Shown: positions 17,066 to 48,469 of the stretch, piece after piece
How positions within the stretch are numbered: the stretch's first letter is position 1
Layout: each line of letters starts with the position of its first letter
From: Linyphia triangularis
Lineage: Eukaryota; Arthropoda; Arachnida; Araneae; Linyphiidae
Length of the DNA stretch: 64,000 nt
Assembly (NCBI GenBank): GCA_963978545.1
Contig: OZ021730.1
Location: forward strand, 4,504,201-4,568,200
Direction: 5' to 3'
The notes under the pieces: model-generated
What the model was told of the DNA's origin: nothing
Database searches by the model: none
The model's input: the letters and a program-made list of their open reading frames with translations, nothing else
Program-made: the position numbers and the translations under genes

Positions 17066-17073
17066 CATTCAAT

Positions 17074-21977: not shown

Positions 21978-23997
21978 TTAATGGCGTGCTGCTCGATAAA
22001 CAGCTTGTACATGTTCATCAAGTTCAACAATCAAACGCTGTTCTGGAATGGGATTGTTTGGTCCAGGCACTAAGTTGACTGAGAAAGCATCTCCAGTTTT
22101 GTTGGTTGTATTACTGTAAGCAGAGTTCTTTTGTAGGATAAGCTGGTGAAACATATGCTCAGCTTCATTTGCATCATTTTCTTCTTGTGGTTTAACTTCT
22201 TGGAGTACATTGAGAAGAGTCCAGTAAGTAGTGACTAGAGTCATGGGCACAGTGTTTGCCAAATTCATATGGACTATATATCTTGGGGATACTCCACATT
22301 TGATGAAGGTGCCTTCTATATTGGTAGCTCTCGTCACTCCAAACACAGCCACCATATCATAGATTCTTCTTGAGTTTAGACAAAACGGTGGCTGGTAGAT
22401 GCCTCCTGTGTTGTTGAATAGGGTTGTTAATCCTGATATAGGTGCTCCTGCCCTATTGATGACTGCAGTAAATTTTTCCTTGCCCTGAATTTGTTGTCCA
22501 AGTGCATACAACATGACGTTTAGTCTTCTTAGGGTTATGTCCCTTGGAGCAGCACCAACTGCAATGATACCTGCAGCTCTTAGGTGCAGAAAGAAATTGA
22601 AGATGATATCAATGTTTGATGCCTGCTGGACTAGTCCACCACCTGCTGCTTCTAGTGTTTGTATCTCTTGTCTGGCTCTTACATACTCTGCTTCCTGCCT
22701 TTCTGTATGTCCTCTAGGAAATTCTCCATGGATCCTTGCATATTCCAAAAGTGCTGTAGTTAGGAGCAATAGTCCTGTTTTAGGAGCAATTCCTTCTCTC
22801 ACTTCTTCCACAACGGGATCACCAATGTTACCAACCCCAGTGTTTGACCTTCTGTTTAAGGGGAGTAGCGGCTGAAATTCTCCATTTTCGATGAAGTCAC
22901 TATAGCTTGAATAATGGCCACATCCACCTCCTCTTGCGGGTTGGCCTCCAAGCCTTGCTTGTCTCTTCCGATTCATGGCTTCGAGAATGTTGCTTAGTTG
23001 GCCAGCAAGTCCTCCAGAAACCTGGATCCTCCTAGCTACATTGGGATTGCCGCTGTCAAATATGGGTAATGGGAGAACCGGCTGCATGTGTTCTCGAAAC
23101 AATCTGGAGCACTGACCATACATTCGGATTTGCTCTGCTGTTGCAACTGCTGTGTTAACATTTGCAATTACTGCTGCAGTGATGTTGTTGTAGTTTGCAG
23201 ATCCAATTTCAACACATCCAGCAAGCAAGAAGCCAGAAGACATCATCCAAAGAGCCTCCCTCCTAGGTGCAGCATACGTTAGGTATGGGCTGACCCACTG
23301 TGAGATTGCAGATGCAGCCTCAGCGGCACTGACATCTGGATTCCTAATTGTATCAGTGAGACCTTCCGGAACATAGACTCCTGTAAAGAAGATGTCTGTG
23401 TTACATGTTGTTCTGTTTGTAGGCAAGCCAGCACAGAGTTCTGTGAATCTACGTTCTAGAGCAGCAACATTCTCAAATGTTGGAAATGATGTTAATGCAT
23501 TGTTCTGCATGTTGCTGTTTCCTTGGTCTTGTTCTGGATCACTATCAGGGTTGCCTGCTCCTCCGCCTGTCTGAATTACTTGCCCTTCTTTTCTGTCAGG
23601 TTCGTTGGTTTCTGTCTTCTCAGTTGACCTCTCTCTGGCAGTCCTTCTTTTTGAGGCTCCAGATCTTTTTTTTCTTTTGAGTGCTCTTCTTGGTATTCTT
23701 ACTGCCTGACTCCCCTGATACTTGAGTCTTGAGGACTACCTTTGTCTTTCTGGGATCTTGCTCCTCTGCCTTTTCTTCCTCTTCGGTTTTCTCTACTGCA
23801 CTGGTGTTCTTAAAAGCAGTGGAGGCTCTGGATGTTGAGGTTAGCCGGTTTACTAGCTTTTTTACTTTACCTGCTATTTTGTCTAGATGTTTGTATTGGT
23901 TAAGAAAAGTACAACAAGTGCAACCCCTAGAAATGTTATTAAGAGGAGGAAAAAACCGTTTATTGCTAGAAGTGCAAAGAAGATATTGAGAATGCAA
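21978..23997 (-). pseudogene. Virus-like structural ORF, possible endogenous viral nucleoprotein or coat gene, frameshifted
   Basis: On the minus strand, a 125-codon N-terminal frame (from 23997) rich in Lys, Glu and Thr is followed by a 510-residue Ala/Asn-rich globular block (23510-21978). The second copy (40831-41793) reads through the join in one frame. This copy has one extra T in a T-run near 23666-23673, and that breaks it. The protein has no zinc finger, protease or polymerase motif. An Ala-rich helical core and a basic, low-complexity N-terminus suggest a nucleocapsid of a negative-strand RNA virus, perhaps jingchuvirus-like. That family call is an impression and untested. Alternatives are an unknown retroelement gag or a host gene without introns. 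I see no flanking viral genes. Confidence 0.45.
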
Positions 23998-24519
23998 TCA
24001 GATGTCATGAGATTATGTCTTACAAGAGTTTAAGTTTAAATTTAAATTTGAGCTTATACTAGACCTTTGTTAATAATTTTGGTTTTAATTTAATCAAACT
24101 AAATTTACGATTGAACCAATGATAGATAGAATGTTAGAATGTAAAAGGCAGGTTAGTTCTCATCAATTTTTATTAGATAACCAGCATATTCTCTCAAGAA
24201 ACAGTTTAGTGGGGATGGGGGTCCAACTATCTTAGAGACGTTTTCTTTGGTGTTCCCTTTGGCCCACGCTTCGGCCGAAACAGGAGGCAGAGTACGGCTC
24301 TGTCAATCGGCTGGTGGTAACAGAACCTCCGGGTTGCTGACTGCTGAAGGGTTAGGACTGGGTTGGTCATGGTGCCCAAAGGTGGTTGGCCTTGGGGAGC
24401 CACACTCTGACTGCTCAGAACGACCTCGGCGTACTACCCCTTAGCGGGCCCAATGTCTGCTACCCTTGTTGGGCTCGGTGGTGGGCGGGGGTGTACGTCA
24501 AGCTTCTAATTCACTTATT
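23998..24519. other. Spacer, then probable GC-rich 5' UTR of fragment K
   Basis: 23998-24210 is AT-rich and featureless. From about 24213 the sequence becomes GC-rich and runs into ATG 24520. Its last part (GGTGGTGGGCGGGGGTGTAC, from 24477) is shared with the truncated leader of element F at 35562. I infer that 24213-24519 is a second, distinct Fam-2 5' UTR type, unlike the CCCCTCAGGGGG leader. Confidence 0.5.
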
Positions 24520-25197
24520 ATGGCTGCTTTTCCTCTTTTGAGCCTGACGGGAGGCCTTAATCCCCAACTAAAACCAAAGCGAACAATAGAAAATGACGAT
24601 AACTCTATATCAAAACGACAATCAATTGAACTTAATCGACCCTCCTATCTTATTATGCACTCTGAATCTGATCAACTCGCTAAATGTTCCCCTTTCTTAA
24701 TTCAAAAGGCCATCAAAGGTATTTGCGGAAATGACCCGAAAAATGTAAAGAAACTTCGATCTGGAGACCTTCTCATCCAAACTATAGACGCAAAACAATC
24801 TCAATCACTACTCGACACAACATCAATAGCTAATATCACCGTCCAAGTAACTCCCCATAAATCCCTAAATTCTTCTCAAGGGGTTATATCAGAGTCGGAC
24901 CTACTCGACGTAGACGACTCTGAACTGACATTAGAACTGTCAGCCCAGGGAGTTACTAGCGCCAAAAGAATAACCATAAAAAGAGACGGAAATACAATAA
25001 AAACCAAACATGTAATACTGACATTCAATAGCCCTAACCTTCCAAACAGAATCACCGCAGGTTACCTAAATTGCCATGTTCGACCTTATATCCCCAATCC
25101 TCTGCGGTGTTTCAAGTGCCAAAAATATGGTCACTCTAGAAACATCTGCAGATCGAAGGATGAAGCATGTGCTAATTGTGGCAGCATTGAGCATACT
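24520..25197 (+). pseudogene. Fragment K: N-terminal half of a Fam-2 ORF1
   Basis: This is the ORF1 start MAAFPLLSLTGGLNPQL, the core (LIMHSESDQLAKCSPFLIQKA-type box, KLRSGDLLIQT, KRITIKRDGN) and the first zinc knuckle CFKCQKYGHSRNIC. The second knuckle is cut off after CGSIEH by element J, and a short readthrough ends at 25227. K most resembles F and G, and G (48470 onward, next to the second copy of J) starts later in the same protein. I infer that K and G are the two sides of one element into which J inserted. Confidence 0.85.
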
Positions 25198-25426
25198 GGG
25201 AATCTCGTCTACTGGGAATCTCGTTAAAGGTGGAGACATCTACAGGGACGAGCCGGTCGCGTATAGACACTAGATAACCTGATAGTGCTATGCCGTGCGT
25301 AACAGATCAGTTACTATTTTTTTCTTTTCTTGGTTTTTGTTGCTTGCCGGTGTGCACTATCCCTAATATCGAGGACTCCATGGTGGGTGGGATTCTAGTG
25401 TCCGAATTTCTATTTTCTTTATTTTA

Positions 25427-26788
25427 ATGGCATCAATTCTTCCTTTGTGCCCCACGGGAGGCCTTAATCCCCAGACAACTAAACAAACAACCAAAAGAAC
25501 CCTCGAAATAGATGACAATAGTATCCCCAAAAAACAGGCATCTCCAAATAATGAACCTACTTTTCTTATAGTGCATTCTGAATCAGGCGAATTGGGCAAA
25601 ATGTCCCCCTTTTTCATACAAAAGGGTTTAAAAGGCATTTGCGGAAATGAGCCCAAAACAATTAAAAAACTAAAATCCGGCGACTTCCTTATCGAAACAA
25701 AAGACAATAGGCAATCCCAATATCTCATCTCTGCAACTAAAATAGGTAACATAACAATAACCGTAACTCCACATAAAGCACTAAATTCCTGTCAAGGCGT
25801 AATCTCTGAAAGTGACCTCCAGCATGTCGAAGAAGAAGAAATATTAAAAGAACTCTCACCCCAAGGAATCACAAAAGTAAAACGCATCACAATCAAACGA
25901 GATGGAAATATAATAAAAACCAAACACCTGATCTTAACCTTTGATACACCAAAACTGCCGAATAGAATTACCGCAGGATACTTAAGTTGCCCAGTTCGCC
26001 CATTCATACCTAATCCCTTACGTTGTTTCAAATGCCATAAGTTCGGGCATTCGAAAAACGCATGCAGAGGCACTCAGGATATATGTGGAGTGTGTGGCAG
26101 CGCTGATCATCTAAGCGAAGGCTGCCAAGCTGAGCCCTCATGCGTTAACTGCTCTGGAAAACATCCATCTTTTTCCAGGCAGTGCCCAAACTGGATAGAT
26201 GAAAAAGAAATCCAAAAAATTAAAACTAACAACAGCATTTCCTATCCAGAGGCCCGAACCATCTATGAAAACACAGTAGTTAATACAATGGCAAAAAAAA
26301 TAGCAAAAACAATCGTACCTAAACCATCCGAAGTAAAATCTATATCTACACAAACAGATATCCACATCCCAAACTCCCGAATGTCACCAGAACAACTGCT
26401 TGAATGTTTTTCCCCACCCGCCAAATTCAGTAACTCTTCTTGTCAAACAAACCCACTTCCAGGCAATTCAAAACTTAAAGCAAATCCACCAAAACCTACT
26501 GCAAAACCTAACAAAAACAAGAAACAATTGGAACAAAAGCAATCAAATAAACCTGGAGATGCCCTAAAAAATAAAATACAATCAAAATTACAAGTGAATA
26601 CAAAGCAAAAAACTGTAACAAATAAAGAGAGGTCAGAATCATCGGGAACATCTACCGATGATGAAAGAGATGTCATCTCGGGTCTTGAACCAGGTGACAT
26701 GGAGGTCGACCCAGGCCTCGAGACCCTTGCTCTTCTTCATCCGAGGAGCAAGTCAAAAGACCGGCGGAACGACAATATTTCCAATTAA
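25427..26788 (+). CDS. Element J ORF1: Fam-2 gag-like zinc-knuckle protein
   Basis: This is an intact 453-residue protein beginning MASILPLCPTGGLNPQ. It has GKMSPFFIQKGLKG, KLKSGDFLIETKD, KRITIKRDGN and zinc knuckles CFKCHKFGHSKNAC, CGVCGSADHLSEGC and CVNCSGKHPSFSRQC. A Lys/Asn-rich basic region and an acidic segment (DDERDVISGLEPGDMEVD) follow. It is close to E's ORF1 and identical, as far as I compared, to 43223-44584. It would bind element RNA. Confidence 0.93.
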   Translation: MASILPLCPTGGLNPQTTKQTTKRTLEIDDNSIPKKQASPNNEPTFLIVHSESGELGKMSPFFIQKGLKGICGNEPKTIKKLKSGDFLIETKDNRQSQYLISATKIGNITITVTPHKALNSCQGVISESDLQHVEEEEILKELSPQGITKVKRITIKRDGNIIKTKHLILTFDTPKLPNRITAGYLSCPVRPFIPNPLRCFKCHKFGHSKNACRGTQDICGVCGSADHLSEGCQAEPSCVNCSGKHPSFSRQCPNWIDEKEIQKIKTNNSISYPEARTIYENTVVNTMAKKIAKTIVPKPSEVKSISTQTDIHIPNSRMSPEQLLECFSPPAKFSNSSCQTNPLPGNSKLKANPPKPTAKPNKNKKQLEQKQSNKPGDALKNKIQSKLQVNTKQKTVTNKERSESSGTSTDDERDVISGLEPGDMEVDPGLETLALLHPRSKSKDRRNDNISN

Positions 26789-26796
26789 CATTCAAT

Positions 26797-27118
26797 ATGT
26801 TATCTTGGAATTGTCGTGGTTTCCATCAAAATTCGGTAGATATAAAACATCTTGTAGATTTGTACAAACCTGTCTGCTTCTGTTTACAAGAGACGCTCTT
26901 GAAGCCTTTTCAAAGCTCTCTTGTTAGGGGGTATACTCCTCTACGTAAGGATTATATTAGCGACGACAGAGCTAGCGGTGGTGTTGCTATATTTACATCT
27001 GATAGCAGTCCATCCACCCCGCTATCGCTCACAACCTCCTTACAAGCTGTTGCTGTTAGAGTAACTGTAAAAAACTTACTTGTCACAGTTTGCTCAGTTT
27101 ATCTCCCCCCTAATCGTA
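26797..27118 (+). pseudogene. Element J ORF2, N-terminal fragment (endonuclease start)
   Basis: The start is ATG 26797 (MLSWNCRGFH), eight bases after the ORF1 stop. LQET and the following endonuclease strands are present; the fragment is cut after ...LPPNR by D1. The undisturbed continuation is seen in J' from 44915. Confidence 0.92.
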
Positions 27119-27752
27119 CCCCTCAGGGGGTTTACTTTCTATAAGTAAATACGGGCTTCACAACCCCGGGGCGCCCCCAGTGATCTATCCCTCCTTCTGT
27201 TTTATCTTCTCGTTTTGTTTTTGTATTTATCGTTTGACTTCTTTCTTCCCTCGTTGTGGTTACCTCTTCAGAGGTGAGGGCTCCCCTTGAGAAGCTTTGT
27301 GCCGCTCTGTTGCCATCAGCTTCTCTCGGGCATTTAATCACCCACGTGTTTGCCGTGCGTGGAGACCCGTGTCTCTGGAAAGGGGGATCCTGGTAGTTGA
27401 GGGGCGACATACTGTCCCAATACACTACTTTGGCCCTTGCTTCAGATAAACGGGAGGTGCACATTGGTCCCGTGTGTATCAATCGGCTGGTCGTCCGACT
27501 TCGTCGGCGGCTAGGGATCAAGCGTCCGGCTCGTCTGCTGGGAATCTCGTTAAGGGTGGAGACTTCTACAGGGACGAGTCGTTCGCGTATAGGTACTGGA
27601 CAACCCGATAGAGTCATGCTGTGCGTAACAGTTCTGTTGATATTTTGTTTTCTTTTATGATTTTTGTTGCTTGCCGGCAGGCTCTATCCCCGATAATGAG
27701 GACTCCATGGTGGGTGGGACTCTAGTGCCCGAATTATTATTTCTATTATTTG
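27119..27752 (+). promoter_or_regulatory. Fam-1 5' UTR of D1
   Basis: This full leader starts at the canonical CCCCTCAGGGGG. Its first 220 bases match stub H (49972-50191) more closely than the B leader does (the TTATCTTCTCGTTTTG variant). Confidence 0.75.
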
Positions 27753-28886
27753 ATGGCAACTAAAACTTCTTTCTTTTCTCCCCCTTGTGGGGAGCAACAA
27801 GGTCCTATACTTACCGAAAAATTTTTCATTGTGAAAAGATCTGAGGGCTCATTTGAAAAGCTCTCTCCTTTTTTTATTGAAAAGGCTCTAAAGTCAAACG
27901 TAGGAGATGTAGTCTCCGTTAAGAAATTGAGATCTGGCGATTTATTAGTTGAAGTCCGGAACGCTAATCAAGTCAACAGCATTTTAAAGATGGAAGCTTT
28001 CGGAACTTACCCAGTGACCGTGAGTGCACACGCCTCACTTAATAAGTCTAAGGGGGTTATATCTGAACCCGATCTCTATCATACATCTGAAGAAGAGATC
28101 TTGGATCATTTACGCGACCAGAAAGTTTCTGCCGTTCACCGGATAACCATCCGTAAAGATGGAACTATTATCCCTACTAAACACCTAATACTGACCTTTG
28201 ATATGCCAACTCTTCCAACACAGGTGAAAGCCGGGTATATAAACTGCCGCATACGACCTTACATACCAAACCCACTTCGTTGCTTCAAGTGCCAGAGATT
28301 TGGTCATTCCCAAACGGCTTGCCGCGGGAAAATTGATATCTGTGCACGATGTGCAGGAAGTGGTCATGGTAGTTCTGATTGCACTGCACCTGAAAAGTGT
28401 GTCAACTGTGAAGGAGCACATACATCTTTCTCCCGAAAATGTCCCAATTGGATACAGGAGAAAGAGATACAAACTGTCCGTGCTAACCAAAATTTGACAT
28501 ACTTTGAGGCAAGGAAACAGGTTGAAGCCCGGACTCCTCGTGTTGGAGTGTCATATTCTAACGCTTGTAAAAAGTCAGTTAGCAGCCAGAGTACACAGAC
28601 GGAGACTATTTCTTTGCCACTTGCCAAGTTACCCCAACGGGCGTCCTCTTCAGATTCCATCAAAAGACCGTCTCTGATTAAGAAATCTCTTGCAAAGTCG
28701 AAGGCTTTGCAAACGATGAAATTAAAATCTGCAAAGGGTGTTTCTATTAGAGGGAAACCTGCTAACCCTTTTCACATCCTTGGTTCAATTAGAGATCCAG
28801 ATGAGGTGAATTTACACCCATCTGATGACGATGAGATCCTAGAAGAAGATCCCGACCCCCCTTTCAAATTTTCTTTAAATAATTAA
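27753..28886 (+). CDS. D1 ORF1: gag-like zinc-knuckle protein
   Basis: This intact 377-residue Fam-1 ORF1 begins MATKTSFFSPPCGEQQ. It has the core boxes FEKLSPFFIEKAL, KLRSGDLLVEV and HRITIRKDG, three zinc knuckles (CFKCQRFGHSQTAC, CARCAGSGHGSSDC, CVNCEGAHTSFSRKC) and an acidic tail DDDEILEEDPD. The stop overlaps the ORF2 start (TAATG). It differs from B and C at many positions, so D1 represents a separate Fam-1 lineage. The D1' copy at 55855-56988 is almost identical (one Phe/Leu difference noticed). Confidence 0.93.
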   Translation: MATKTSFFSPPCGEQQGPILTEKFFIVKRSEGSFEKLSPFFIEKALKSNVGDVVSVKKLRSGDLLVEVRNANQVNSILKMEAFGTYPVTVSAHASLNKSKGVISEPDLYHTSEEEILDHLRDQKVSAVHRITIRKDGTIIPTKHLILTFDMPTLPTQVKAGYINCRIRPYIPNPLRCFKCQRFGHSQTACRGKIDICARCAGSGHGSSDCTAPEKCVNCEGAHTSFSRKCPNWIQEKEIQTVRANQNLTYFEARKQVEARTPRVGVSYSNACKKSVSSQSTQTETISLPLAKLPQRASSSDSIKRPSLIKKSLAKSKALQTMKLKSAKGVSIRGKPANPFHILGSIRDPDEVNLHPSDDDEILEEDPDPPFKFSLNN

Positions 28887-31800
28887 TGGCTTCTTTTGTT
28901 TCTTGGAATTGTCGCGGTTTTAGGTCGAGGAAGGATGATGTTAAGAATATTATTTCAACTTACCATCCAGCATGTTTGGCACTTCAAGAAACTTTCTTGA
29001 AGGATCCATATAAATCAAAGATCCGTGGGTATAGTTGTATTAGGAAAGATGTTACCCGTAGTAATACAGTGTCTGGAGGAGTATGTCTTTTTATTTCTCA
29101 TAATTATCCCAGCACTGTAATCACACTACGCACATCTCTACAGGCTGTGGCTGCGAGACTTCATTTACAGTCCCTTCTCACAGTCTGTTGCCTATACCTA
29201 CCGCCACATGCTATCATCCGCCAAGAGGAGCTGAATGATTTGATAGACCAGCTTCCAACTCCATTTCTATTGCTTGGTGACTTAAATGGACACAGTACTA
29301 TGTGGGGTAATGCTAATACGAACCCTCGTGGGAGACAAGTGGAAAAGTTGCTTTCTGATCACTGTCTCTGTCTCCTGAATAATGAGGAGAAAACCTATTT
29401 TCATGAACCCACTAGATTATTCCATTCACTTGACTTAGCCATTTGTTCCCCTATACTTTTGCCATACTTGAATTTTGCTGTTGGGAGTGATCTACATAAC
29501 AGTGATCACTTCCCTATTCTCATTTCGCACACGGGTAGTGGTGGCGTGAACATACGTCTACCTACATACAAATACCACAAGGCGAATTGGGACAGATTTA
29601 CTGAGTTGGCTGTTGTAACAGGAACAATGGTGGACAGTGAGGATGTTGATACTGCTGTCCAAAATGTCACTGAAGCAATTTTAAATGCTGCTGACTCCTC
29701 CATTCCTAAGACATCACCTAGAACACTGCGGCACTGTAAATCATACTGGAATGCAGACTGTCAGTCTGCATACAAGAAACAAAAGAAGCTATGGGGTATC
29801 TTCCGCAGATACCCAACTACAGGAAACCTTATCGCCTTTAAAAAGGCTAAGGCATTTGCTCGTAGAGTTAGACGTCAAAGTCAGAAGGATTCTTGGATAA
29901 GTTATGTATCTTCAATTACTTCTAAAACATCAAGCAAGCAGTTGTGGAAGAAGGTTAGAGCAGCCAACGGTTTGTATCCGGAATATTCTTGTCCGATACT
30001 TCAAACCGGAGCTGCTGTGTTCTCTTCCCCTGAAGATATTGCTAACCTTATAGGTGAAACTTTTGAAAGTGTATCCAGTTCCGATTCTTATAGTCCTGCA
30101 TTTTTAGTGACTAAGAATCGTGCTGAACGGGCTGGAATTAATTTCAAGAGCAATATTGATTACTCCTACAACTGTGACCTTAAGATGTACGAATTGAAGA
30201 GTGCTTTATCTAAAGCACACAACACCAGTCCAGGTCCAGATGGGATCAGTTACCAAATGCTTCGCCATTTAAGTCCAGATTCTCTTTTTAACATCCTTTT
30301 TCTTTTTAATCGAATCTGGAAGGAGAACATCTTTCCTACCTTGTGGCGGGAAGCTACTGTAATCCCCATTCTGAAACCTGGAAAGGATCCCAAGGATCCT
30401 CTGAACTATCGACCGATAGCCTTAACGAGCTGCCTCTGTAAGACCTTTGAACGTATTGTAAACGCCCGACTCTCTTGCATGTTGGAAAAAGATGGATGTA
30501 TTTCACCTTTTCAGAGTGGATTCCGACAAGGACGGTCCACTCTTGATAACATCGTGAAACTAGAAACAGAAGTCCGCAATGCCTTTGTGCAAAGGAATCA
30601 TCTAGTTTCAATCTTTTTCGACATTGAGAAAGCGTATGATCATACGTGGCGATATGGTATCCTGCAAACTCTATTTAATTTTGGTTTTAGGGGTAATCTG
30701 CCCCTTTTTATTCAAAATTTTTTATCATCTCGTGTTTTTAGAGTTCGTATTGGAGCTTCATTTTCAAATTATTTTAACCAATCTGAGGGAGTTCCTCAAG
30801 GTTGTGTTTTAAGTGTCACCCTTTTTAATCTACACATCAGCAACATCCTTCATGTCCTTTCACCCTTTGTTCATGGAACTTTGTATGTTGATGATTTGCA
30901 AATTTCATGCCAAGGATCAAACATGCGCTTAATTGAACGTCAATTACAAACTGCTGTTAACAGACTTGTAGAATGGTGTGAACAAAACGGCCATACATTG
31001 TCACCATCTAAAAGCAGTTGCATCCACTTCTGTAGGAGGAGGGGTCTTCACCCTGACCCTGAAATCCACATACGCAATTCTCCCATCCCAGTTGTGAATC
31101 AGATAAGATACCTGGGAGTTATCTTTGACAATAAGTTAAATTTTCTCCCACATATTGTATACTTGCGCAAGAAGTGCGATAAATCGCTTAATATCCTCAA
31201 AGTACTCTCAAATACTTCTTGGGGTGCTGACCGCACTTCTTTGCTGCGTATCTACCAATCTGTAATCTTATCTCGCATTGATTACGGATGTGTTGCGTAT
31301 GGGTCTGCAGGAGTATCCCTTCTACGAAGGTTGGATACTGTCCATCACACTGCTGCCCGTATTTGTTCAGGTGCATTTCGCACTTCACCCATTGAAAGTC
31401 TGTTGACAGAGTGTAGTCTCCTTCCACTTGACCTTAGACGTAAAAAGTTAATCGCTAACTACTACTGTAGAATAAAATCTGATCCTTCTCATCCTTTACG
31501 GAATTTGAGTCTTGACGCATATCTTGGTAGGCTATATAATGCACGTCCATCTAGCATTCGCCCATTTTCTGAAAGAGCTCAATCTGTTCTGTCGGATGCA
31601 GCTCTAAGTGACCTAGATATCCAGCTGGCTAATTCTCAGATCTTTCCTCCTTGGGATGTTCCATCATTTAATTTTTTAAATCCATTTGCGATGCATTACA
31701 AAGCAGACACTGCCCCAGAAATTTTACAGAAGATCTTTTGTTTACACCGATCTCAGTATAGAGACTATCATGCAGTCTATACTGATGGATCCAAAGCAGG

Positions 31801-32133
31801 TGAACGTGTTGGCTGTGGCGTTGTGTCTGACACATCCACAGTCAGTTTCACGCTTCATAAATCCTGCTCTGTTTTTACTTCTGAGATGGTTGCAATTTTT
31901 TGTGCTCTGCTGCACATTTCTTTGTGCTCCCATCGCAAGTTTTGTGTATACAGCGATAGCTTAAGTGCTCTAACAAGCCTGGAGCACTTTAATAACATAT
32001 GTCATCCAATAGCTCCTGACATATTATCTCTGTTACACAAACTTGAGAGGAAAGGTTTTGTTATTTTGTTTTGCTGGGTACCTAGTCACGTGGGGATTTC
32101 AGGAAATGAATTGGCGGACTCTGCTGCTAAATC
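28886..32133 (+). pseudogene. D1 ORF2: EN-RT and most of RNase H, truncated by D2
   Basis: This is Fam-1 ORF2 from ATG 28886 with all endonuclease boxes, RT including GVPQGCVLS and YVDDLQ, and RNase H up to WVPSHVGISGNELADSAAK (residue ~1082 of 1226). The frame then runs into the D2 leader and stops at 32194. The RNase H catalytic Asp/Glu/Asp set is present, but the C-terminal zinc motif is missing. Residues around 850-970 match B, whereas D1' matches C there, which indicates recombination between lineages. Confidence 0.92.
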
Positions 32134-32769
32134 CCCCTCAGGGGGTTTACTTTCTTTAAGTAAACACGGGCGTCACAACCCCGAGGTGCCCTAGTGATCT
32201 AGCCCTTCGTCTGTTTATACCTTCTCATTTTGGGTTTTATATTTATCGTTTGTTTTCTTTTCCTTCCCTCATTGTGATTACCTCATTTGAGGTGAGGGCT
32301 CCCCTTGAGAAGCTTAGTGCCGCTCTGTTGCCATCAGCTTCTCTCGGGCATTTAATCACCCACGTGTTTGCCGTGCGTGGAGACCCGTGTCCCTGGAAAG
32401 GGGGATCCTGGTAGTTGAGGGACGACATACTGTCCCAATACACTACTTTGGCCCTTGCTTCAGATAAACGGGAGGTACACATTGGTCCCGTGTGTATCAA
32501 TCGGCTGGTCGTCCGACTTCGTCGGCGGCTAGGAATCAAGCGTCCGACTCGTCTGCTGGGAATCTCGTTAAGGGTGGAGACTTCTACAGGGACGAGTCGT
32601 TCGCGTATAGGTACTGGATAACCCGGTAGTGCCATACCGTGCGCAATAGTTGAGTTCTCGTTTTCCTTTTTTTTCATTATTTTTGTTGCTTGCCGGTATA
32701 CACTATCCCCAATAGCGTGGACTCCATGGTGGGTGGGACTCTAGTGCCCGAATCTTTTAACCTACTTTT
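32134..32769 (+). promoter_or_regulatory. Fam-1 5' UTR of D2 (divergent variant)
   Basis: This is a complete leader beginning CCCCTCAGGGGG, with one extra C before it. The TTTACTT...AAGTAAA stem is kept, while surrounding bases differ (CACGGGCGTCAC, CCGAGGTGCCC). It is the most diverged leader in the window. Confidence 0.75.
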
Positions 32770-35561: not shown

Positions 35562-35606
35562 GGTGGTGGGCGGGGGTGTACGTCGAGTTTTGTAAAAAAA
35601 AAAACT

Positions 35607-37007: not shown

Positions 37008-37015
37008 AGTTCAAT

Positions 37016-40000
37016 CTCTTATCCTGGAATTGTCGCGGTTTCCACCACAATTCGGTAGATATAAAACATCTCGTAGATGATTACCAACCAGTCTGTTTCT
37101 GTCTACAGGAGACGCTCTTGAAGTCCTTTCAGAGTTCTCTTGTTAGGGGGTATAGTCCTCTTCGCAAGGACTATACTGGAGGCGGCAGAGCTAGTGGTGG
37201 TGTAGCTATATTTATATCAAACAGCTACCCTTTCACCGTGCTACCACTAACTACAAATTTACAAGCTATTGCCGTTAGAGTAACTTTGCAACATCAACTA
37301 ATCACAGTTTGCTCGATTTATCTCCCCCCTACTCTTAACATCAGACAGACAGACCTCAACAGGCTGTGTGACCAGCTTCCTTCCCCCTTTATTATCATGG
37401 GGGATTTCAATGGCCACAATCCTCTTTGGGGTAGCCTGGATATAAATGGCCGTGGAAGACAGATAGAAAAATTGCTTGAAGACAAAAATCTTTGTCTTTT
37501 GAATAACGGAAAACATACTTACTTCCACACCCCTTCGAGGACGTTTCACTCCATCGATCTTATCTTGTGTTCACCTTCTCTTTATCCTTTATGGTGTTTT
37601 CATGTGGAAAGTGATCTCTATCACAGCGATCACTTTCCTATCCGCATGGAAATGTTGGGAGCTGGTACTCCCCCTCTTGCCCGGCTTCCTCGATTTATTA
37701 TTAAAGCCGCAGATTGGGAACACTTTTCGTCTATTGTCAACTTAACTGATGAAATGGTGAACCAAGATGAGATCGATGTAGCAACAAACTCTATCACACA
37801 GGCTATTTTAGAAGCTGCGCGACTTTCCATACCTGTAACATCTACTAATCTACCGAAAATTCCAAAACCTTGGTGGAACCGCGATTGTAGAATCGCCCTT
37901 AAAAAGCAAAAGAGGTGTTGGGGTAGTTTTAGGCGATATCCCACTGAAGGTAACCTCATTGCTTTTAAATGTGCTCGAGCAGAGGCTCGTAGAATCCGCC
38001 GTCGAAGTCAGAAGGACTCTTGGATGCATTATGTCAGTACTATTACATCTAATACTTCAGTCAAAAGGGTCTGGAACAAAGTGAATAAGATCAAGGGCGT
38101 GTATCCCAGTCAGTCCGTTTCCATCTTAGAGACTGATCAGGGAATAGTTTCAGACCCTAAAGACATCGCTGACTCTCTGGCTGCTGCCTTTGCTAAAGTT
38201 TCAAGTAACTCCAATTATATAGAGCCATTTGCCTCCCATAAGCTTAGAGCTGAGAGTACAAAATTAAATTTTACTTCTATTTTTGTAGAAGAATATAATG
38301 TTGATTTCACGTTGGCCGAGTTGGTGCAAGCTCTTTCCACCACTCACAACTCTGCCGCAGGTCACGATGAAATACATTATATTATGCTAAAACATCTGCA
38401 GCCACTCCAGCTCAAGATTATACTTAAACTTTTTAATCGCATCTGGCGCGAAAATAAGTTCCCAACATCATGGCAGCGAGCTCACATTATCCCAATTGTC
38501 AAGCCAGATAAAGATCCCAAGAGTCCTTCTAGCTATCGGCCTATTGCTTTAACCAGCTGCTTATGCAAATTGCTAGAAAAGATGGTTAATTCCCGACTTC
38601 TCTTTTATCTTGAGGAAAACAATTGTCTCTCTCGGTTTCAGAGTGGGTTCCGACGTGGTCGTGGTACCATTGATAATCTAGTTCTCCTTGAAACATCTAT
38701 TCGGGAGGCATTTGTCAAGCGGAACCATTTGGTGTCTGTATTTTTCGACATGGAGAAAGCCTATGACCGTACTTGGAGATATGGTATCCTCAGAGACCTA
38801 CATAATTTAGGTCTCAGAGGAAATTTACCACTCTTTATTGAGAATTTCCTTTCTCGGAGAGTCTTCCAAGTACGCGTCAACTCTGTCTTATCTGATGAGT
38901 ATATTCAAGAGCAAGGCGTTCCCCAGGGAAGTGTATTGAGTTGCGCACTATTTATCGTGAAGGTCAACGACATTATGACCTGCCTACCACCTGCAGTGTC
39001 TGGTTCCCTTTTTGTCGACGACTTTCAGATATCGTGCGCCTCAATAAACATGTCACTCGTTGAAAGACAAATTCAACTTGCCATCAGAAGGATTACAGGC
39101 TGGGCCAACCAAAACGGATTTACATTCAATGCTCAAAAGACTGTGGCCATGCACTTTTGCAGGAAACGTGAGCTTCATAACGATCCTGAGATTCTCTTAA
39201 ATGGGATTCGGATACCTGTTGTAGCAGAAACAAAATTCCTTGGAATCATCTTCGATTCGAAGCTCACTTTCCTGCCACACATCAAATATCTTAAACTCAA
39301 GTGCACTAAATCCTTGAACCTACTGAAGGTGCTGTCAAACACTTCCTGGGGTGCGGATACCATCTCCATGCTACGAATATACAGATGCCTAGTTCGTTCT
39401 AAACTTGATTATGGCTCGGTGGTGTACGGATCTGCCACAAAATCGGCACTAAAGCTCCTTGATCCTGTTCACCATCAAGGTGTCCGAATCGCATTAGGAG
39501 CCTTCCGTACATCACCAATCCCAAGCGTACTCATCTCATGTACGGAACACTCTTTGAAACTGAGAAGAGACAAGCTTTGTTTAAAATATTATTTTAAAGT
39601 GAAATGTCACCCTCATCACCCACTCTCACAGAATGTTTTTAATCCCTCTCATTGCAGACTCTTTCATGCTCGTCCTGCTTGTATTGCATCATTTTCATTA
39701 AGAATGCGGGAAACTCTTGCACTTCATCTTTTAGATGATTTTAAAGTTCACCCTCTTTTACCTATCTTCCCACCCTGGCATCCTCATCAAATTAAAGTTT
39801 TAAATATTTTTTCTAATTTTAAGAAAAGTGATACTCCGCCCATAGCTTTTACTCAACTATTTTATTACCATCGAAACTCATTTTCAAATTTTAATGCTGT
39901 ATACACAGATGGATCAAAAAGCCAGGGGCATGTGGGGTCAGCTGTTGTTTTTGATAACAGCACACTATCAAAAGAACTACACACTTGTAGTTCTATTTTT

Positions 40001-40693
40001 ACAGCTGAATCCTACGCTATTCTTCTGGCTTTGAATCAAATATTACGAGAAGTCCATAAACAATGGATCGTTTACACAGACTCAAAGAGCTGTGTCGACG
40101 CGCTCCGTAATCCATTGTCACAAACTCACCCTTTCATCCTTAAAATTTTAAAAATTTATACACGTCTTTTACAACAAAATTATAACATCTTCTTTTGCTG
40201 GATCCCAGGTCATGTGGGGATCATGGGAAACGAGCGGGCAGACGAAATAGCACGAAGCGTTAGAGGGGAGAAAAGCAACTGGCTGTGCCTTGATGATATA
40301 TTTAAAGTCTGCACCAACGCTCTGTCCCATACATGGCAGGCCATGTGGGATACAGAGCTTGCAAATAAGTTACACTCTCTGCAACCCTCAACTACTGGTT
40401 TCACCTTCTCTCAACCAAATAGGAAGAGGGAGGTGATTTTAACAAGACTACGCATCGGCCACACTCGTTTTACCCATGTGCACCTTCTGCTGGCAGAAGG
40501 TGCCCCCACTTGCAATTCCTGTGGTGTTCCTTTTTCTGTTGTTCATATTTTATCGGTTTGTCCAGCTTTTAATTCCATACGACTTCGTCTTTTTAACTCA
40601 GCTCATCCACCATTGTCAACGCTTTTAAATTCATCTCCTCACCCTAAACTTTTTGAATTTTTATTAGAAATTGGATTTTATCACCTTATTTAA
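37016..40693 (+). CDS. Element F ORF2: EN-RT-RNase H polyprotein, CTC at the conserved start position
   Basis: This is a complete Fam-2 ORF2 of about 1225 residues counted from the position aligned with J's ATG, which here is CTC. LLSWNCRGFHHN follows. The first ATG (37118) lies after the endonuclease Asn and Glu boxes. Motifs are GDFNGH, SDHFPI, FFDMEKAYDR, GVPQGSVLS, FVDDF, RNase H YTDGSKSQ, TAES, VYTDSKSC and WIPGHVGIMGNERAD, and the C-terminal CNSCGVPFSVVHILSVC. No stop is visible inside. The start codon is uncertain; the coding frame is secure. Confidence 0.88.
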   Translation, partial: LLSWNCRGFHHNSVDIKHLVDDYQPVCFCLQETLLKSFQSSLVRGYSPLRKDYTGGGRASGGVAIFISNSYPFTVLPLTTNLQAIAVRVTLQHQLITVCSIYLPPTLNIRQTDLNRLCDQLPSPFIIMGDFNGHNPLWGSLDINGRGRQIEKLLEDKNLCLLNNGKHTYFHTPSRTFHSIDLILCSPSLYPLWCFHVESDLYHSDHFPIRMEMLGAGTPPLARLPRFIIKAADWEHFSSIVNLTDEMVNQDEIDVATNSITQAILEAARLSIPVTSTNLPKIPKPWWNRDCRIALKKQKRCWGSFRRYPTEGNLIAFKCARAEARRIRRRSQKDSWMHYVSTITSNTSVKRVWNKVNKIKGVYPSQSVSILETDQGIVSDPKDIADSLAAAFAKVSSNSNYIEPFASHKLRAESTKLNFTSIFVEEYNVDFTLAELVQALSTTHNSAAGHDEIHYIMLKHLQPLQLKIILKLFNRIWRENKFPTSWQRAHIIPIVKPDKDPKSPSSYRPIALTSCLCKLLEKMVNSRLLFYLEENNCLSRFQSGFRRGRGTIDNLVLLETSIREAFVKRNHLVSVFFDMEKAYDRTWRYGILRDLHNLGLRGNLPLFIENFLSRRVFQVRVNSVLSDEYIQEQGVPQGSVLSCALFIVKVNDIMTCLPPAVSGSLFVDDFQISCASINMSLVERQIQLAIRRITGWANQNGFTFNAQKTVAMHFCRKRELHNDPEILLNGIRIPVVAETKFLGIIFDSKLTFLPHIKYLKLKCTKSLNLLKVLSNTSWGADTISMLRIYRCLVRSKLDYGSVVYGSATKSALKLLDPVHHQGVRIALGAFRTSPIPSVLISCTEHSLKLRRDKLCLKYYFKVKCHPHHPLSQNVFNPSHCRLFHARPACIASFSLRMRETLALHLLDDFKVHPLLPIFPPWHPHQIKVLNIFSNFKKSDTPPIAFTQLFYYHRNSFSNFNAVYTDGSKSQGHVGSAVVFDNSTLSKELHTCSSIFTAESYAILLALNQILREVHKQWIVYTDSKSCVDALRNPLSQTHPFILKILKIYTRLLQQNYNIFFCWIPGHVGIMGNERADEIARSVRGEKSNWLCLDDIFKVCTNALSHTWQAMWDTELANKLHSLQPSTTGFTFSQPNRKREVILTRLRIGHTRFTHVHLLLAEGAPTCNSCGVPFSVVHILSVCPAFNSIRLRLFNSAHPPLSTLLNSSPHPKLFEFLLEIGFYHLI

Positions 40694-40827
40694 AGATTTT
40701 TACTTGTTAAATTTTTGTCGTCTTGTCTATGTATTTTAATTTCCCTTTTAATTCTTTTATAACTGGTTTCGGCGCAGTATGGCCCTAGCGTTGCCTTTGC
40801 GCCAGGAAATGTAAAACAACCAACCAA
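40694..40827 (+). other. Element F 3' UTR, terminal hairpin and (AACC)n tail
   Basis: GGCGCA (40771-40776) pairs with TGCGCC (40798-40803), with an inner GGC/GCC stem, then AACC repeats. The tail meets CCTAGCTACATT of the duplicated flank with a shared CC/CCT, as expected of primed reverse transcription. Confidence 0.85.
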
Positions 40828-40830
40828 CCT

Positions 40831-41793
40831 AGCTACATTGGGATTGCCACTGTCAAATATGGGTAATGGGAGAACCGGCTGCATGTGTTCTCGAAACAAT
40901 CTGGAGCACTGACCATACATTCGGATTTGCTCTGCTGTTGCAACTGCTGTGTTAACATTTGCAATTACTGCTGCAGTGATGTTGTTGTAGTTTGCAGATC
41001 CAATTTCAACACATCCAGCAAGCAAGAAGCCAGAAGACATCATCCAAAGAGCCTCCCTCCTAGGTGCAGCATACGTTAGGTATGGGCTGACCCACTGTGA
41101 GATTGCAGATGCAGCCTCAGCGGCACTGACATCTGGATTCCTAATTGTATCAGTGAGACCTTCCGGAACATAGACTCCTGTAAAGAAGATGTCTGTGTTA
41201 CATGTTGTTCTGTTTGTAGGCAAGCCAGCACAGAGTTCTGTGAATCTACGTTCTAGAGCAGCAACATTCTCAAATGTTGGAAATGATGTTAATGCATTGT
41301 TCTGCATGTTGCTGTTTCCTTGGTCTTGTTCTGGATCACTATCAGGGTTGCCTGCTCCTCCGCCTGTCTGAATTACTTGCCCTTCTTTTCTGTCAGGTTC
41401 GTTGGTTTCTGTCTTCTCAGTTGACCTCTCTCTGGCAGTCCTTCTTTTTGAGGCTCCAGATCTTTTTTTCTTTTGAGTGCTCTTCTTGGTATTCTTACTG
41501 CCTGACTCCCCTGATACTTGAGTCTTGAGGACTACCTTTGTCTTTCTGGGATCTTGCTCCTCTGCCTTTTCTTCCTCTTCGGTTTTCTCTACTGCACTGG
41601 TGTTCTTAAAAGCAGTGGAGGCTCTGGATGTTGAGGTTAGCCGGTTTACTAGCTTTTTTACTTTACCTGCTATTTTGTCTAGATGTTTGTATTGGTTAAG
41701 AAAAGTACAACAAGTGCAACCCCTAGAAATGTTATTAAGAGGAGGAAAAAACCGTTTATTGCTAGAAGTGCAAAGAAGATATTGAGAATGCAA
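40831..41793 (-). pseudogene. Second copy of the virus-like structural ORF, 3'-truncated
   Basis: On the minus strand, the N-terminal basic region and the start of the globular block read in one frame here, because the T-run near 41465 has seven rather than eight T. The last ~350 residues present in the first copy are absent. The frame instead runs out into element F's 3' UTR and stops at 40690. This is expected if this copy is the right flank of a large target duplication whose left edge falls inside the gene. Viral origin remains tentative, as for the first copy. Confidence 0.45.
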
Positions 41794-42315
41794 TCAGATG
41801 TCATGAGATTATGTCTTACAAGAGTTTAAGTTTAAATTTAAATTTGAGCTTATACTAGACCTTTGTTAATAATTTTGGTTTTAATTTAATCAAACTAAAT
41901 TTACGATTGAACCAATGATAGATAGAATGTTAGAATGTAAAAGGCAGGTTAGTTCTCATCAATTTTTATTAGATAACCAGCATATTCTCTCAAGAAACAG
42001 TTTAGTGGGGATGGGGGTCCAACTATCTTAGAGACGTTTTCTTTGGTGTTCCCTTTGGCCCACGCTTCGGCCGAAACAGGAGGCAGAGTACGGCTCTGTC
42101 AATCGGCTGGTGGTAACAGAACCTCCGGGTTGCTGACTGCTGAAGGGTTAGGACTGGGTTGGTCATGGTGCCCAAAGGTGGTTGGCCTTGGGGAGCCACA
42201 CTCTGACTGCTCAGAACGACCTCGGCGTACTACCCCTTAGCGGGCCCAATGTCTGCTACCCTTGTTGGGCTCGGTGGTGGGCGGGGGTGTACGTCAAGCT
42301 TCTAATTCACTTATT
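41794..42315. other. Spacer and probable leader of fragment K' (duplicate of 23998-24519)
   Basis: This has the same AT-rich then GC-rich sequence as the left copy. No gene is supported. Confidence 0.5.
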
Positions 42316-42993
42316 ATGGCTGCTTTTCCTCTTTTGAGCCTGACGGGAGGCCTTAATCCCCAACTAAAACCAAAGCGAACAATAGAAAATGACGATAACT
42401 CTATATCAAAACGACAATCAATTGAACTTAATCGACCCTCCTATCTTATTATGCACTCTGAATCTGATCAACTCGCTAAATGTTCCCCTTTCTTAATTCA
42501 AAAGGCCATCAAAGGTATTTGCGGAAATGACCCGAAAAATGTAAAGAAACTTCGATCTGGAGACCTTCTCATCCAAACTATAGACGCAAAACAATCTCAA
42601 TCACTACTCGACACAACATCAATAGCTAATATCACCGTCCAAGTAACTCCCCATAAATCCCTAAATTCTTCTCAAGGGGTTATATCAGAGTCGGACCTAC
42701 TCGACGTAGACGACTCTGAACTGACATTAGAACTGTCAGCCCAGGGAGTTACTAGCGCCAAAAGAATAACCATAAAAAGAGACGGAAATACAATAAAAAC
42801 CAAACATGTAATACTGACATTCAATAGCCCTAACCTTCCAAACAGAATCACCGCAGGTTACCTAAATTGCCATGTTCGACCTTATATCCCCAATCCTCTG
42901 CGGTGTTTCAAGTGCCAAAAATATGGTCACTCTAGAAACATCTGCAGATCGAAGGATGAAGCATGTGCTAATTGTGGCAGCATTGAGCATACT
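42316..42993 (+). pseudogene. Fragment K': N-terminal half of a Fam-2 ORF1 (duplicate of K)
   Basis: It has the same start, core and first zinc knuckle as 24520-25197, and is interrupted by J' in the second knuckle. Downstream of J', G resumes the same type of ORF1 about 110 codons later, so roughly 0.34 kb of the target is missing. Confidence 0.85.
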
Positions 42994-43222
42994 GGGAATC
43001 TCGTCTACTGGGAATCTCGTTAAAGGTGGAGACATCTACAGGGACGAGCCGGTCGCGTATAGACACTAGATAACCTGATAGTGCTATGCCGTGCGTAACA
43101 GATCAGTTACTATTTTTTTCTTTTCTTGGTTTTTGTTGCTTGCCGGTGTGCACTATCCCTAATATCGAGGACTCCATGGTGGGTGGGATTCTAGTGTCCG
43201 AATTTCTATTTTCTTTATTTTA

Positions 43223-44584
43223 ATGGCATCAATTCTTCCTTTGTGCCCCACGGGAGGCCTTAATCCCCAGACAACTAAACAAACAACCAAAAGAACCCTC
43301 GAAATAGATGACAATAGTATCCCCAAAAAACAGGCATCTCCAAATAATGAACCTACTTTTCTTATAGTGCATTCTGAATCAGGCGAATTGGGCAAAATGT
43401 CCCCCTTTTTCATACAAAAGGGTTTAAAAGGCATTTGCGGAAATGAGCCCAAAACAATTAAAAAACTAAAATCCGGCGACTTCCTTATCGAAACAAAAGA
43501 CAATAGGCAATCCCAATATCTCATCTCTGCAACTAAAATAGGTAACATAACAATAACCGTAACTCCACATAAAGCACTAAATTCCTGTCAAGGCGTAATC
43601 TCTGAAAGTGACCTCCAGCATGTCGAAGAAGAAGAAATATTAAAAGAACTCTCACCCCAAGGAATCACAAAAGTAAAACGCATCACAATCAAACGAGATG
43701 GAAATATAATAAAAACCAAACACCTGATCTTAACCTTTGATACACCAAAACTGCCGAATAGAATTACCGCAGGATACTTAAGTTGCCCAGTTCGCCCATT
43801 CATACCTAATCCCTTACGTTGTTTCAAATGCCATAAGTTCGGGCATTCGAAAAACGCATGCAGAGGCACTCAGGATATATGTGGAGTGTGTGGCAGCGCT
43901 GATCATCTAAGCGAAGGCTGCCAAGCTGAGCCCTCATGCGTTAACTGCTCTGGAAAACATCCATCTTTTTCCAGGCAGTGCCCAAACTGGATAGATGAAA
44001 AAGAAATCCAAAAAATTAAAACTAACAACAGCATTTCCTATCCAGAGGCCCGAACCATCTATGAAAACACAGTAGTTAATACAATGGCAAAAAAAATAGC
44101 AAAAACAATCGTACCTAAACCATCCGAAGTAAAATCTATATCTACACAAACAGATATCCACATCCCAAACTCCCGAATGTCACCAGAACAACTGCTTGAA
44201 TGTTTTTCCCCACCCGCCAAATTCAGTAACTCTTCTTGTCAAACAAACCCACTTCCAGGCAATTCAAAACTTAAAGCAAATCCACCAAAACCTACTGCAA
44301 AACCTAACAAAAACAAGAAACAATTGGAACAAAAGCAATCAAATAAACCTGGAGATGCCCTAAAAAATAAAATACAATCAAAATTACAAGTGAATACAAA
44401 GCAAAAAACTGTAACAAATAAAGAGAGGTCAGAATCATCGGGAACATCTACCGATGATGAAAGAGATGTCATCTCGGGTCTTGAACCAGGTGACATGGAG
44501 GTCGACCCAGGCCTCGAGACCCTTGCTCTTCTTCATCCGAGGAGCAAGTCAAAAGACCGGCGGAACGACAATATTTCCAATTAA
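43223..44584 (+). CDS. Element J' ORF1: Fam-2 gag-like zinc-knuckle protein
   Basis: This duplicate of 25427-26788 is an intact 453-residue frame with three zinc knuckles, a basic linker and an acidic segment. The next ORF starts eight bases after its stop. Confidence 0.93.
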   Translation: MASILPLCPTGGLNPQTTKQTTKRTLEIDDNSIPKKQASPNNEPTFLIVHSESGELGKMSPFFIQKGLKGICGNEPKTIKKLKSGDFLIETKDNRQSQYLISATKIGNITITVTPHKALNSCQGVISESDLQHVEEEEILKELSPQGITKVKRITIKRDGNIIKTKHLILTFDTPKLPNRITAGYLSCPVRPFIPNPLRCFKCHKFGHSKNACRGTQDICGVCGSADHLSEGCQAEPSCVNCSGKHPSFSRQCPNWIDEKEIQKIKTNNSISYPEARTIYENTVVNTMAKKIAKTIVPKPSEVKSISTQTDIHIPNSRMSPEQLLECFSPPAKFSNSSCQTNPLPGNSKLKANPPKPTAKPNKNKKQLEQKQSNKPGDALKNKIQSKLQVNTKQKTVTNKERSESSGTSTDDERDVISGLEPGDMEVDPGLETLALLHPRSKSKDRRNDNISN

Positions 44585-44592
44585 CATTCAAT

Positions 44593-47500
44593 ATGTTATC
44601 TTGGAATTGTCGTGGTTTCCATCAAAATTCGGTAGATATAAAACATCTTGTAGATTTGTACAAACCTGTCTGCTTCTGTTTACAAGAGACGCTCTTGAAG
44701 CCTTTTCAAAGCTCTCTTGTTAGGGGGTATACTCCTCTACGTAAGGATTATATTAGCGACGACAGAGCTAGCGGTGGTGTTGCTATATTTACATCTGATA
44801 GCAGTCCATCCACCCCGCTATCGCTCACAACCTCCTTACAAGCTGTTGCTGTTAGAGTAACTGTAAAAAACTTACTTGTCACAGTTTGCTCAGTTTATCT
44901 CCCCCCTAATCGTAACATCCGACAAACAGAACTAGACAGGCTTTGTGACCAGCTTCCACCCCCTATTATTATAATGGGGGATTTTAATGGTCACAATCCT
45001 CTTTGGGGTAGCCCAGACGTTAACAACCGTGGAAGACAGATTGAAAAATTTATAGAGGATCAGAATCTCTGTCTTCTCAACGATGGGCAACATACATACT
45101 TCCACACCCCATCGAGGTCGTTTCATGCCATCGATCTTGCCTTGTGTTCACCATCTCTATTACATCTTTGGTCTTTCCATGTTGGACGCAATCTGTATCA
45201 TAGCGACCACTTTCCCATCATTATGAAATATAAAAGAGATGAGACTAATCCTTCCTACCGCCTACCTCGATTTAAAATTGAGGCGGCGAACTGGGAATTG
45301 TTTTGTTCAGTTATACAATTATCCGACGAGATGGTGAACCAAGAGAACATCGATGAGGCTGTAAATTCTGTCACCCTGGCCATTTTGGAAGCTGCTCGCA
45401 TTTCTATACCTGTGACATCTACAAATCTACCGAAAATTCCAAAACCATGGTGGAATAACGACTGCAAAATTGCCCACAAAAAGCAGAGGAAGGCTTGGGG
45501 TATCTTTCGTCGATACCCCACTGAAACCAACCTCATCGCTTTCAAATGTGCTCGAGCGGAAGCTCGAAGGATCCGCCGGCGTAGCCAAAAGGATTCTTGG
45601 ATGCATTATGTCAGCACTATAACATCGAATACTTCTTCTAAAAGGGTCTGGAACAAAGTCAATAAAATCAAGGGTCAGTACCCTAGACACTCCGTTTCCA
45701 TCTTGGAAACAGATATAGGAATAGTTTCAGACCCTAAATGTATTGCTGACGTCCTGGCTGACTCATTTGCTAAAGTTTCCAGCAACTCGAATTACCAAGA
45801 GCCGTTTGCCTCCATCAAACGTAAAGCTGAGAAATCTAAATTGAATTTTACATCTGCCATGTTGGAAGACTATAATGCTGATTTCACCATGGCCGAGTTA
45901 ACACGAGCTCTTTCGAACACTCGCGGCTCGGCTGTTGGTCATGAGGAAATCCATTATAGTATGATAAAGCATCTCCAGCCTCTCCAACTTAAATTTATTC
46001 TCAAGCTATATAATAGGATCTGGCGGGAAAATAAATTTCCGTCATCATGGCAACGTGCTCTTGTAATTCCAATAGTCAAGCCAGGTAAAGACCCTAAGAG
46101 TCCTTCCAGCTACAGACCAATAGCTTTGACCAGCTGCTTATGTAAACTATTGGAGAAAGTGGTCAATGCCCGTCTTCTCTTTTATTTGGAACAAAATAAT
46201 TGTCTATCTCAGTCTCAGGGAGGTTTCCGTCGTGGACGTTGTACACTTGATAACCTCCTCCTCCTTGAAACATCTATTCGGGAGGCTTTTGTCAAGCGGA
46301 ACCATTTGGTGTCTGTATTTTTCGACATGGAGAAAGCATATGACCGTACTTGGAGATATGGTATCCTCAGAGACCTACATAATTTAGGTCTCAGAGGAAA
46401 TTTACCACTCTTTATTGAGAATTTCCTTTCTCGGAGAGTCTTCCAAGTACGCGTCAACACCATCTTATCAGATGAGTTTATTCAGGAGCAAGGCGTTCCC
46501 CAAGGAAGTGTATTGAGTTGCGCACTGTTTGTCGTAAAAGTCAACAACATTATGACCTGCCTACCACCTGCAGTGTCTGGTTCACTTTTTGTTGATGACT
46601 TTCAGATAGCGTGCGCTTCAATAAATATGTCTCATATCGAAAGACAGGTTCAACTTGCCATCAGAAGAATTTCAGGCTGGGCCAATCAGAATGGGTTTAC
46701 GTTCAATGTCCAAAAAACTGTGGCCATGCACTTTTGCAGGAAACGTGAGTTACATAACGATCCCGAGCTCTTCTTGAATGGGGTCCAAATACCTATTGTA
46801 TCGGAAACAAAATTCCTCGGGGTCTTTTTCGACTCGAAGCTCACTTTCCTGCCTCATATAAAACATCTGAGACTAAAGTGCACTAAAGCTCTGAATCTTC
46901 TGAAAGTGCTTTCTAACACTTCCTGGGGTGCTGATACCATATCCATGTTGAGAATATACAGATGCCTTATTCGTTCCAAACTTGATTATGGCTCTGTGGT
47001 GTATGGATCCGCCAGAAAATCGGCGTTGAGACTCCTCGATCCTGTTCACCATCATGGTGTCAGGATCGCGTCCGGAGTCTTCCGTACATCACCAATTCCA
47101 AGTGTACTTAATACATGTACGGAACACTCTTTGAAACTGAGACGAGATAAGCTTTGTTTAAAATTAAGAGTAATCCTAATCATCCGCTCTTTTATTATGT
47201 TTTTAATCCTTCCCATCAAAGACTTTTTAACGCTCGCCCTTCATGCATTCCCTCCTTTTCATTAAGAATGCTGGACATTCTTTCTTCTTACTGTTTAGAA
47301 AATTTTCAAATTCATTTAACCATGTCCATTATACCACCTTGGCATCCTCATAATATCACTGTTTTAAATGCATTCAGTTCTTTTGAAAAGAGTGAAACAC
47401 CAAATATTGTGTTCACTCAACTTTTTAATCATCATCGGGACAATTTTAAAAATTTCAAAGCCATTTATACAGATGGATCCAAAAGCCAGGGGCATGTTGG

Positions 47501-48257: not shown

Positions 48258-48469
48258 GATTTTTACTGCTTTACCTATTTTAATTGTTTTACCTATTTTA
48301 ATGTTTGCAATTGTTTTTGAAATTTATGTGGGTGAATAAAACTAATAATAATAATTTAATTTTTATCTAGATAAACTTCCTTTATTGAATAATCACTGGC
48401 TTGGCGCAGTATAGCCCATGGGAAGCTCTTGCGCCATAAAACCCTACACATCCAACCAACCAACCAACC
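48258..48469 (+). other. Element J' 3' UTR, terminal hairpin and (AACC)n tail
   Basis: GGCGCA (48403-48408) pairs with TGCGCC (48430-48435). The inner stem is AGC/GCT, a compensated change from GGC/GCC in other copies. ATAAAACCC and AACC repeats follow. Confidence 0.85.

Follow-up and report, generated by a model that had tools for sequence, protein, structure and literature searches.

A 4.09-kb direct repeat around a retrotransposon chain in Linyphia triangularis and its probable origin by recombination between retrotransposons

How does a repeat of about 4 kb come to flank a chain of retrotransposons with the geometry of a target-site duplication (TSD)? The question is raised by a 64,000-nucleotide stretch of the genome of the spider Linyphia triangularis (the window; contig OZ021730.1, here C10, positions 4504201-4568200), part of a 1.35-Gb, 369-contig assembly (1,349 Mb) in which C10 accounts for 91.6 Mb. 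Two nearly identical copies of a 4.09-kb sequence (R1 and R2) abut a 13,709-bp insert (chain 1) made of three long interspersed nuclear elements (LINEs), D1, D2, and F, and the repeated sequence itself holds part of an endogenous viral element (EVE) and the 5′ parts of two further LINEs, K and J. We consider it probable that the repeat arose as a segmental duplication when retrotransposon copies underwent unequal homologous recombination, through either crossing-over or template-switching break-induced replication. The sequence read around the locus spans 294 kb (−139999 to 154000), positions beyond the window extend its numbering (C10 position minus 4,504,200), and all comparisons rest on a single assembly. 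The features that carry the argument are:

21978..23735, minus strand: EVE, a 585-codon frame from stop to stop, related to nairovirus nucleoprotein and crossing the left edge of R1
23031..27118, plus strand: R1, left repeat copy, 4,088 bp (part of the EVE, the K 5′ part, and the J 5′ part), joined without a break to the EVE at its left end
24477..25194, plus strand: K, 5′ part of a LINE, gag with a zinc knuckle
25204..27118, plus strand: J, 5′ part of a LINE, broken after 27118 by D1; an unbroken copy runs on at 44915
27119..32133, plus strand: D1, LINE in J, 5′-complete, without a 3′ end, hybrid
32134..35561, plus strand: D2, LINE in D1, 5′-complete, without a 3′ end, with a 251-bp stretch missing from the other two local copies
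35562..40827, plus strand: F, LINE with an AACC tail, junction element of the duplication
40828..44914, plus strand: R2, right repeat copy, 4,087 bp, starting at the F tail and running on into J at its right end
68678-72765, outside the window: R3, third repeat copy, with two differences from R1, also directly behind an F tail

The repeat and its borders

Aligned end to end, R1 and R2 differ by one substitution (G at 23052, A at 40849) and one 1-bp indel (a T at 23666 in R1, absent from R2), the same number of differences that a first-pass annotation had counted from the window alone; with R3 included, four positions vary, two private to R2 and two to R3. That annotation's view of the event as recent is upheld, and its description of a TSD-like geometry with exact borders proved accurate, the copies abutting the insert at the 5′ end of D1 on one side and at the F tail on the other. 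At the left edge of R2 the (AACC)n tail of F passes directly into the repeat (..CCAACCAACCAA/CCTAGCTACATT..), and in R1 the EVE reads across this edge without a break (..CTGGATCCT/CCTAGCTACATT..); at the right edge R1 ends at the first base of D1 (..CCTAATCGTA/CCCCTCAGGGGG..), and J continues uninterrupted out of R2 (..CCTAATCGTA/ACATCCGAC..). Homology extending past either boundary, which had been named as refuting the geometry, is absent: identity is 25% over the 100 bases to the left and 24% over the 100 bases to the right, the level expected by chance. In the 294 kb, the EVE site at 23030/23031 is uninterrupted in nine places and joined to an F tail in two, and three copies of J read through the D1 site without a break: those of R2 and R3 and a relative at −127218. 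The J of R2 is similar to this relative up to about 46450 and has diverged from it beyond that point. R1 is therefore ancestral on its left side and R2 on its right.

Source elements, hybrids, and ordinary insertions

The insert is not a single insertion. The D1-D2-F nest is present intact to the right of the window at 93634-127434, where F lies in D2, D2 in D1, and D1 in an outer element (D1 93634-98853, D2 98854-102031, and F 102032-124498, the last interrupted at 103382-120569 by a further insertion that has a 14-bp TSD). This nest carries 3′ pieces absent from chain 1, and each nesting step is flanked by an ordinary 14-bp TSD: on the 3′ side the F tail is followed by TCCGACGAGGACGG and the D2 remainder, then by TCTGCTGCTAAATC and the D1 remainder, and finally by TCAAGCTTATATTG and the outer element. 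Each step was therefore an ordinary insertion. The D1/D2 joint has three exact matches in the assembly, all within 67 kb, which indicates that the chain was copied locally as DNA. Two other origins of the chain were rejected: template jumping by reverse transcriptase, which a row of 5′-complete, 3′-less elements could suggest, because the nest shows normal insertion of D2 and F, and mobilization of a composite D1-D2-F as one RNA, because the D1/D2 joint exists only locally.

D1 of chain 1 is a hybrid with one breakpoint. Its left part (27119-30553) matches the D1 copy at 83067 onward at 511 of 511 informative substitutions, and its right part (30574-32133) matches the nested D1 at 174 of 174; with gapped sites included, the counts are 726 of 727 and 176 of 176, respectively. 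The D1 at 83067-88715 has an ordinary 14-bp TSD of its own (CGTGTGGCAAAGCA) and lies in what we take, by eye, to be a putative BEL-type element. A second hybrid, D1′, also with one breakpoint, matches the D1 at 83067-88715 up to 59880 (106/106 informative substitutions) and chain-1 D1 from 59920 (71/71); the nested D1 is the same as chain-1 D1 in this right part, so either could be the exchange partner. Hybrid elements, as expected of non-allelic homologous recombination (NAHR) mediated by transposable elements, are found at the locus in both D1 and D1′.

D1′ marks the edge of a 27.85-kb tandem duplication in which 32953-60232 recurs as 60803-88080 with 99.67% identity and which carries the joint between F and the repeat again, including R3. 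An alignment of 27.8 kb starting at 31819 lists 19 difference events, of which the final one lies at the alignment edge. The elements concerned (chain 2) are:

55222..60234, plus strand: D1′, hybrid, at the edge of the 27.85-kb duplication
60235..63411, plus strand: D2′, chain-2 copy of D2, with a 251-bp deletion at 60802/60803
63412-68677: F′, chain-2 copy of F, followed by R3

F is identical throughout in chains 1 and 2. Compared with the nested F (102032 onward), the chain F shows no differences in its first 2,612 bp, to 38173, and the other 2,654 bp carry 12 substitutions and one 3-bp indel (Fisher P of 2.4e-4 for 13 events, with the split set after the fact at the first difference). A relative at 138492 differs from the chain F by two substitutions, one 1-base indel in an A run, and two bases at the tail end. 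The 13 differences are moderate evidence that F is a mosaic.

The TSDs left by intact insertions provide a yardstick. Insertions were taken as encountered, not exhaustively, and 15 were tabulated: 12 intact insertions, one split pair (14 bp), chain 1, and a LINE designated L, the last two without a TSD. All 12 of the intact insertions, with both ends present, have TSDs of 12-14 bp, and ordinary TSDs were found for F in D2, D2 in D1, D1 in the outer element, and D1 at 83067. The 4.09-kb repeat falls outside the range made by these elements, to which L is a possible exception. Two comparison insertions lie within the window:

2743..14092, plus strand: D(a) with D(b) nested in it, inserted in an element C, with TSDs of 12 and 14 bp
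15038..20907, plus strand: element E, with the 14-bp TSD CCCGGTCAAGTAGG

Formation of the duplication

In the series of events that we propose, the insertions of D2 in D1 and of F in D2 would both have been ordinary events of target-primed reverse transcription (TPRT), each leaving a 14-bp TSD, as in the nest. The D1 in J at 27118 would have gained the 3′ part of the nest through recombination within D1 at 30553-30574, where the hybrid is seen. A second F would have inserted in the EVE at 23030/23031 on a sister or homologous chromosome, and an exchange inside F, pairing this copy with the nested one, would have joined J-D1-D2-F to EVE-K-J at the joint that is seen, duplicating everything between the two insertion sites and dropping the 3′ remainders of D2 and D1. 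A single F exchange at offset sites would thus create a false TSD geometry. A further D1 exchange at 59880-59920, with chain-1 D1 or a similar copy as partner, would have yielded the 27.85-kb tandem duplication and R3, again at a hybrid that is seen. A series of crossovers would be indistinguishable here from a single repair event with template switching.

Several observations weigh against this account. An exact match to F inserted in the EVE, flanked by its own TSD, was found neither in the whole assembly nor in the 294 kb, so we infer both the F-in-EVE insertion and the exchange in F; neither the J-side partner of D1 nor a second parent of element C, in the array described below, was found in the 294 kb, where five partner-site patterns were all absent. 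The F mosaic depends on 13 differences, and the nested F may itself be a product of conversion; the D1 breakpoints fall in narrow intervals, of 20 and 40 bp. The 251-bp deletion and the base at 32534 are common to chain 2 and the nest, and chain-1 D2 is in the other state (the stretch is 32703-32953), so that chain 2 does not simply copy chain 1. With near-identical undeleted D2 copies present elsewhere, this pattern could reflect either gene conversion of chain 1 or an older allele. The long repeat that flanks L could not be explained by recombination.

The geometry could also be that of a true giant TSD, if a composite D1-D2-F RNA had been inserted by TPRT at 23030/23031 in the EVE and the second strand had been cut 4.09 kb away at 27118/27119. 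The exact borders at the D1 5′ end and the F tail favor this, and the idea is a reasonable one since kilobase TSDs exist elsewhere: PMC5223499 describes L1 TSDs with a median of 1,495 bp, including examples of 4,025 and 4,545 bp, in human cells deficient in nucleotide excision repair (NER). It would, however, call for three things at once, a donor that was already composite, a cDNA of 13.7 kb, and a stagger of 4 kb, at a locus where the D1/D2 joint is only local, D1 is a recombination hybrid, every intact insertion examined (12/12) has a 12-14-bp TSD, and a second duplication has a hybrid D1 at its edge. We regard it as very improbable, and the staggered cut of about 4 kb that the first-pass annotation had offered as one explanation finds no support, the insert being a hybrid of separate insertions whose intact counterparts, F in D2 and D2 in D1, lie downstream with 14-bp TSDs.

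Reverse transcription might instead have been coupled to recombination, if a newly made F cDNA, primed at 23031 in the EVE, did not complete its insertion but recombined with the chain-nested F on another chromatid. Chimeric resolution of L1 insertions is known, and such an event would account for the F mosaic, the joint between F and the EVE, and the missing complete F-in-EVE insertion. By itself, however, it leaves the D1 hybrid unexplained, and a parent missing from one assembly is weak evidence; we judge it distinctly improbable. Improbable too is an assembly artefact in which two haplotypes, F-in-EVE and D1-D2-F-in-J, were joined in silico through F, although the same geometry would be expected and F, at 5.3 kb, is near-identical between copies. 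The joint between F and the repeat is seen twice, in copies that differ on both sides, and close to the breakpoints of the D1 hybrids the two source D1s differ at many sites, which makes an overlap-based misjoin there unlikely. The locus is best explained by recombination between retrotransposons, an already known type of event with a striking geometry. The replication-based duplication proposed in the first-pass annotation comes close to this reading, its priming at the insertion being hypothetical.

The EVE array, element L, and known systems

To the left of the repeat, the EVE, K, and element C recur in 10,839-bp tandem units whose pieces are 99.88-100% identical.

−103588..25194: tandem array (C10 4.40-4.53 Mb)
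48469..48482, plus strand: CACAAACAGAACCG, 14-bp partner of the target site at the C 5′ end, now behind the J tail

For a 1,081-bp EVE piece, nine array copies score 100% identical, eight of them agreeing with the ninth letter for letter. The left edge of the array is not an element. Element C of the array has K before its 5′ end and the unit start after it, and with the partner of its 5′ flank lying behind J, an exchange appears to have replaced the 3′ side of C as well. From the same 14-bp partner site, the remainder of K would be 48469-49971. At the K/J junction (25194-25204), a 9-bp filler resembles, by eye, a partial duplication of the adjoining J sequence, and the junction looks like a non-homologous joint.

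The EVE matches nairovirus nucleoprotein in its C-terminal half only (best E 7.6e-10), and a protein search for EVE relatives returned none at E ≤ 0.001 among 7,994 candidates scored. Related EVEs at 69-72% identity lie at C10 6.96-7.06 Mb, C10 20.40-20.41 Mb, C10 8.29 Mb, and 26.6 Mb on a second contig, C15, grouped as nine copies spaced at about 11.3 kb except for two larger intervals of ~17 kb, two further copies separated by 11.28 kb, and two that stand alone. Four partial pieces (329-346 codons, best of six frames) contain no stop and share 79-85% amino acid identity with the window copy, the proportions of nonsynonymous and synonymous differences being 0.09-0.16 and 0.80-0.88 (the latter saturated), a pattern that points to strong purifying selection, exerted in the host or, before the sequences integrated separately, in viruses. 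None of these loci matches the non-coding spacer of the window array unit. Among the LINEs, all 12 J matches at ≥99% and 12 of 13 matches to the F 3′ half (at least 1.9 kb at ≥96%) are on C10, with 40 candidates scored in each case; such a pile-up of young LINEs is perhaps that of a poorly recombining chromosome.

L lies outside the window and inside the array:

−53001..−47186: L, 5.8-kb LINE with a 5′ end and an AACC tail

It is flanked by a 2,499-bp repeat whose copies (−55500..−53002 and −47185..−44687) are 100% identical, and neither a short TSD nor partner sites were found for it in the 294 kb; comparison with three relatives, in the 3′ half only, gave no decision on hybrid structure. L is the strongest remaining candidate for a real giant TSD. 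That some LINE insertions on this heavily retrotransposed chromosome leave kilobase TSDs seems unlikely to us, and its best candidate would be L, not the 4.09-kb repeat. If true, kilobase TSDs, or F cDNA recombining with a resident F during insertion, would seed tandem arrays.

Offset exchange between retrotransposons can mimic a giant TSD, and telling the two apart calls for a search for partner short TSDs and hybrid elements; the locus shows virus-derived sequence multiplied amid such exchanges. In the Bar duplication of Drosophila, a transposon stands at the junction and the unequal exchange was between transposons at different sites. The Linyphia locus shares with Bar a tandem duplication through exchange of this kind, but the element type is another and three elements make up the junction. 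According to PMC3669608, the mouse Abp cluster was duplicated by LINE-mediated NAHR, with a hybrid LINE at the junction; it resembles the present locus in its direct-order duplication, its mappable breakpoint within the hybrid LINE, and its dense young local LINEs, whereas here the exchanging elements are nested and at offset sites, so that a TSD is mimicked, and several events are stacked. The L1 TSDs of NER-deficient cells are similar in that kilobase direct repeats abut both ends of the insert, but those in PMC5223499 belong to single new insertions, whereas the Linyphia insert is a multi-element hybrid with its ordinary TSD partners kept nearby.

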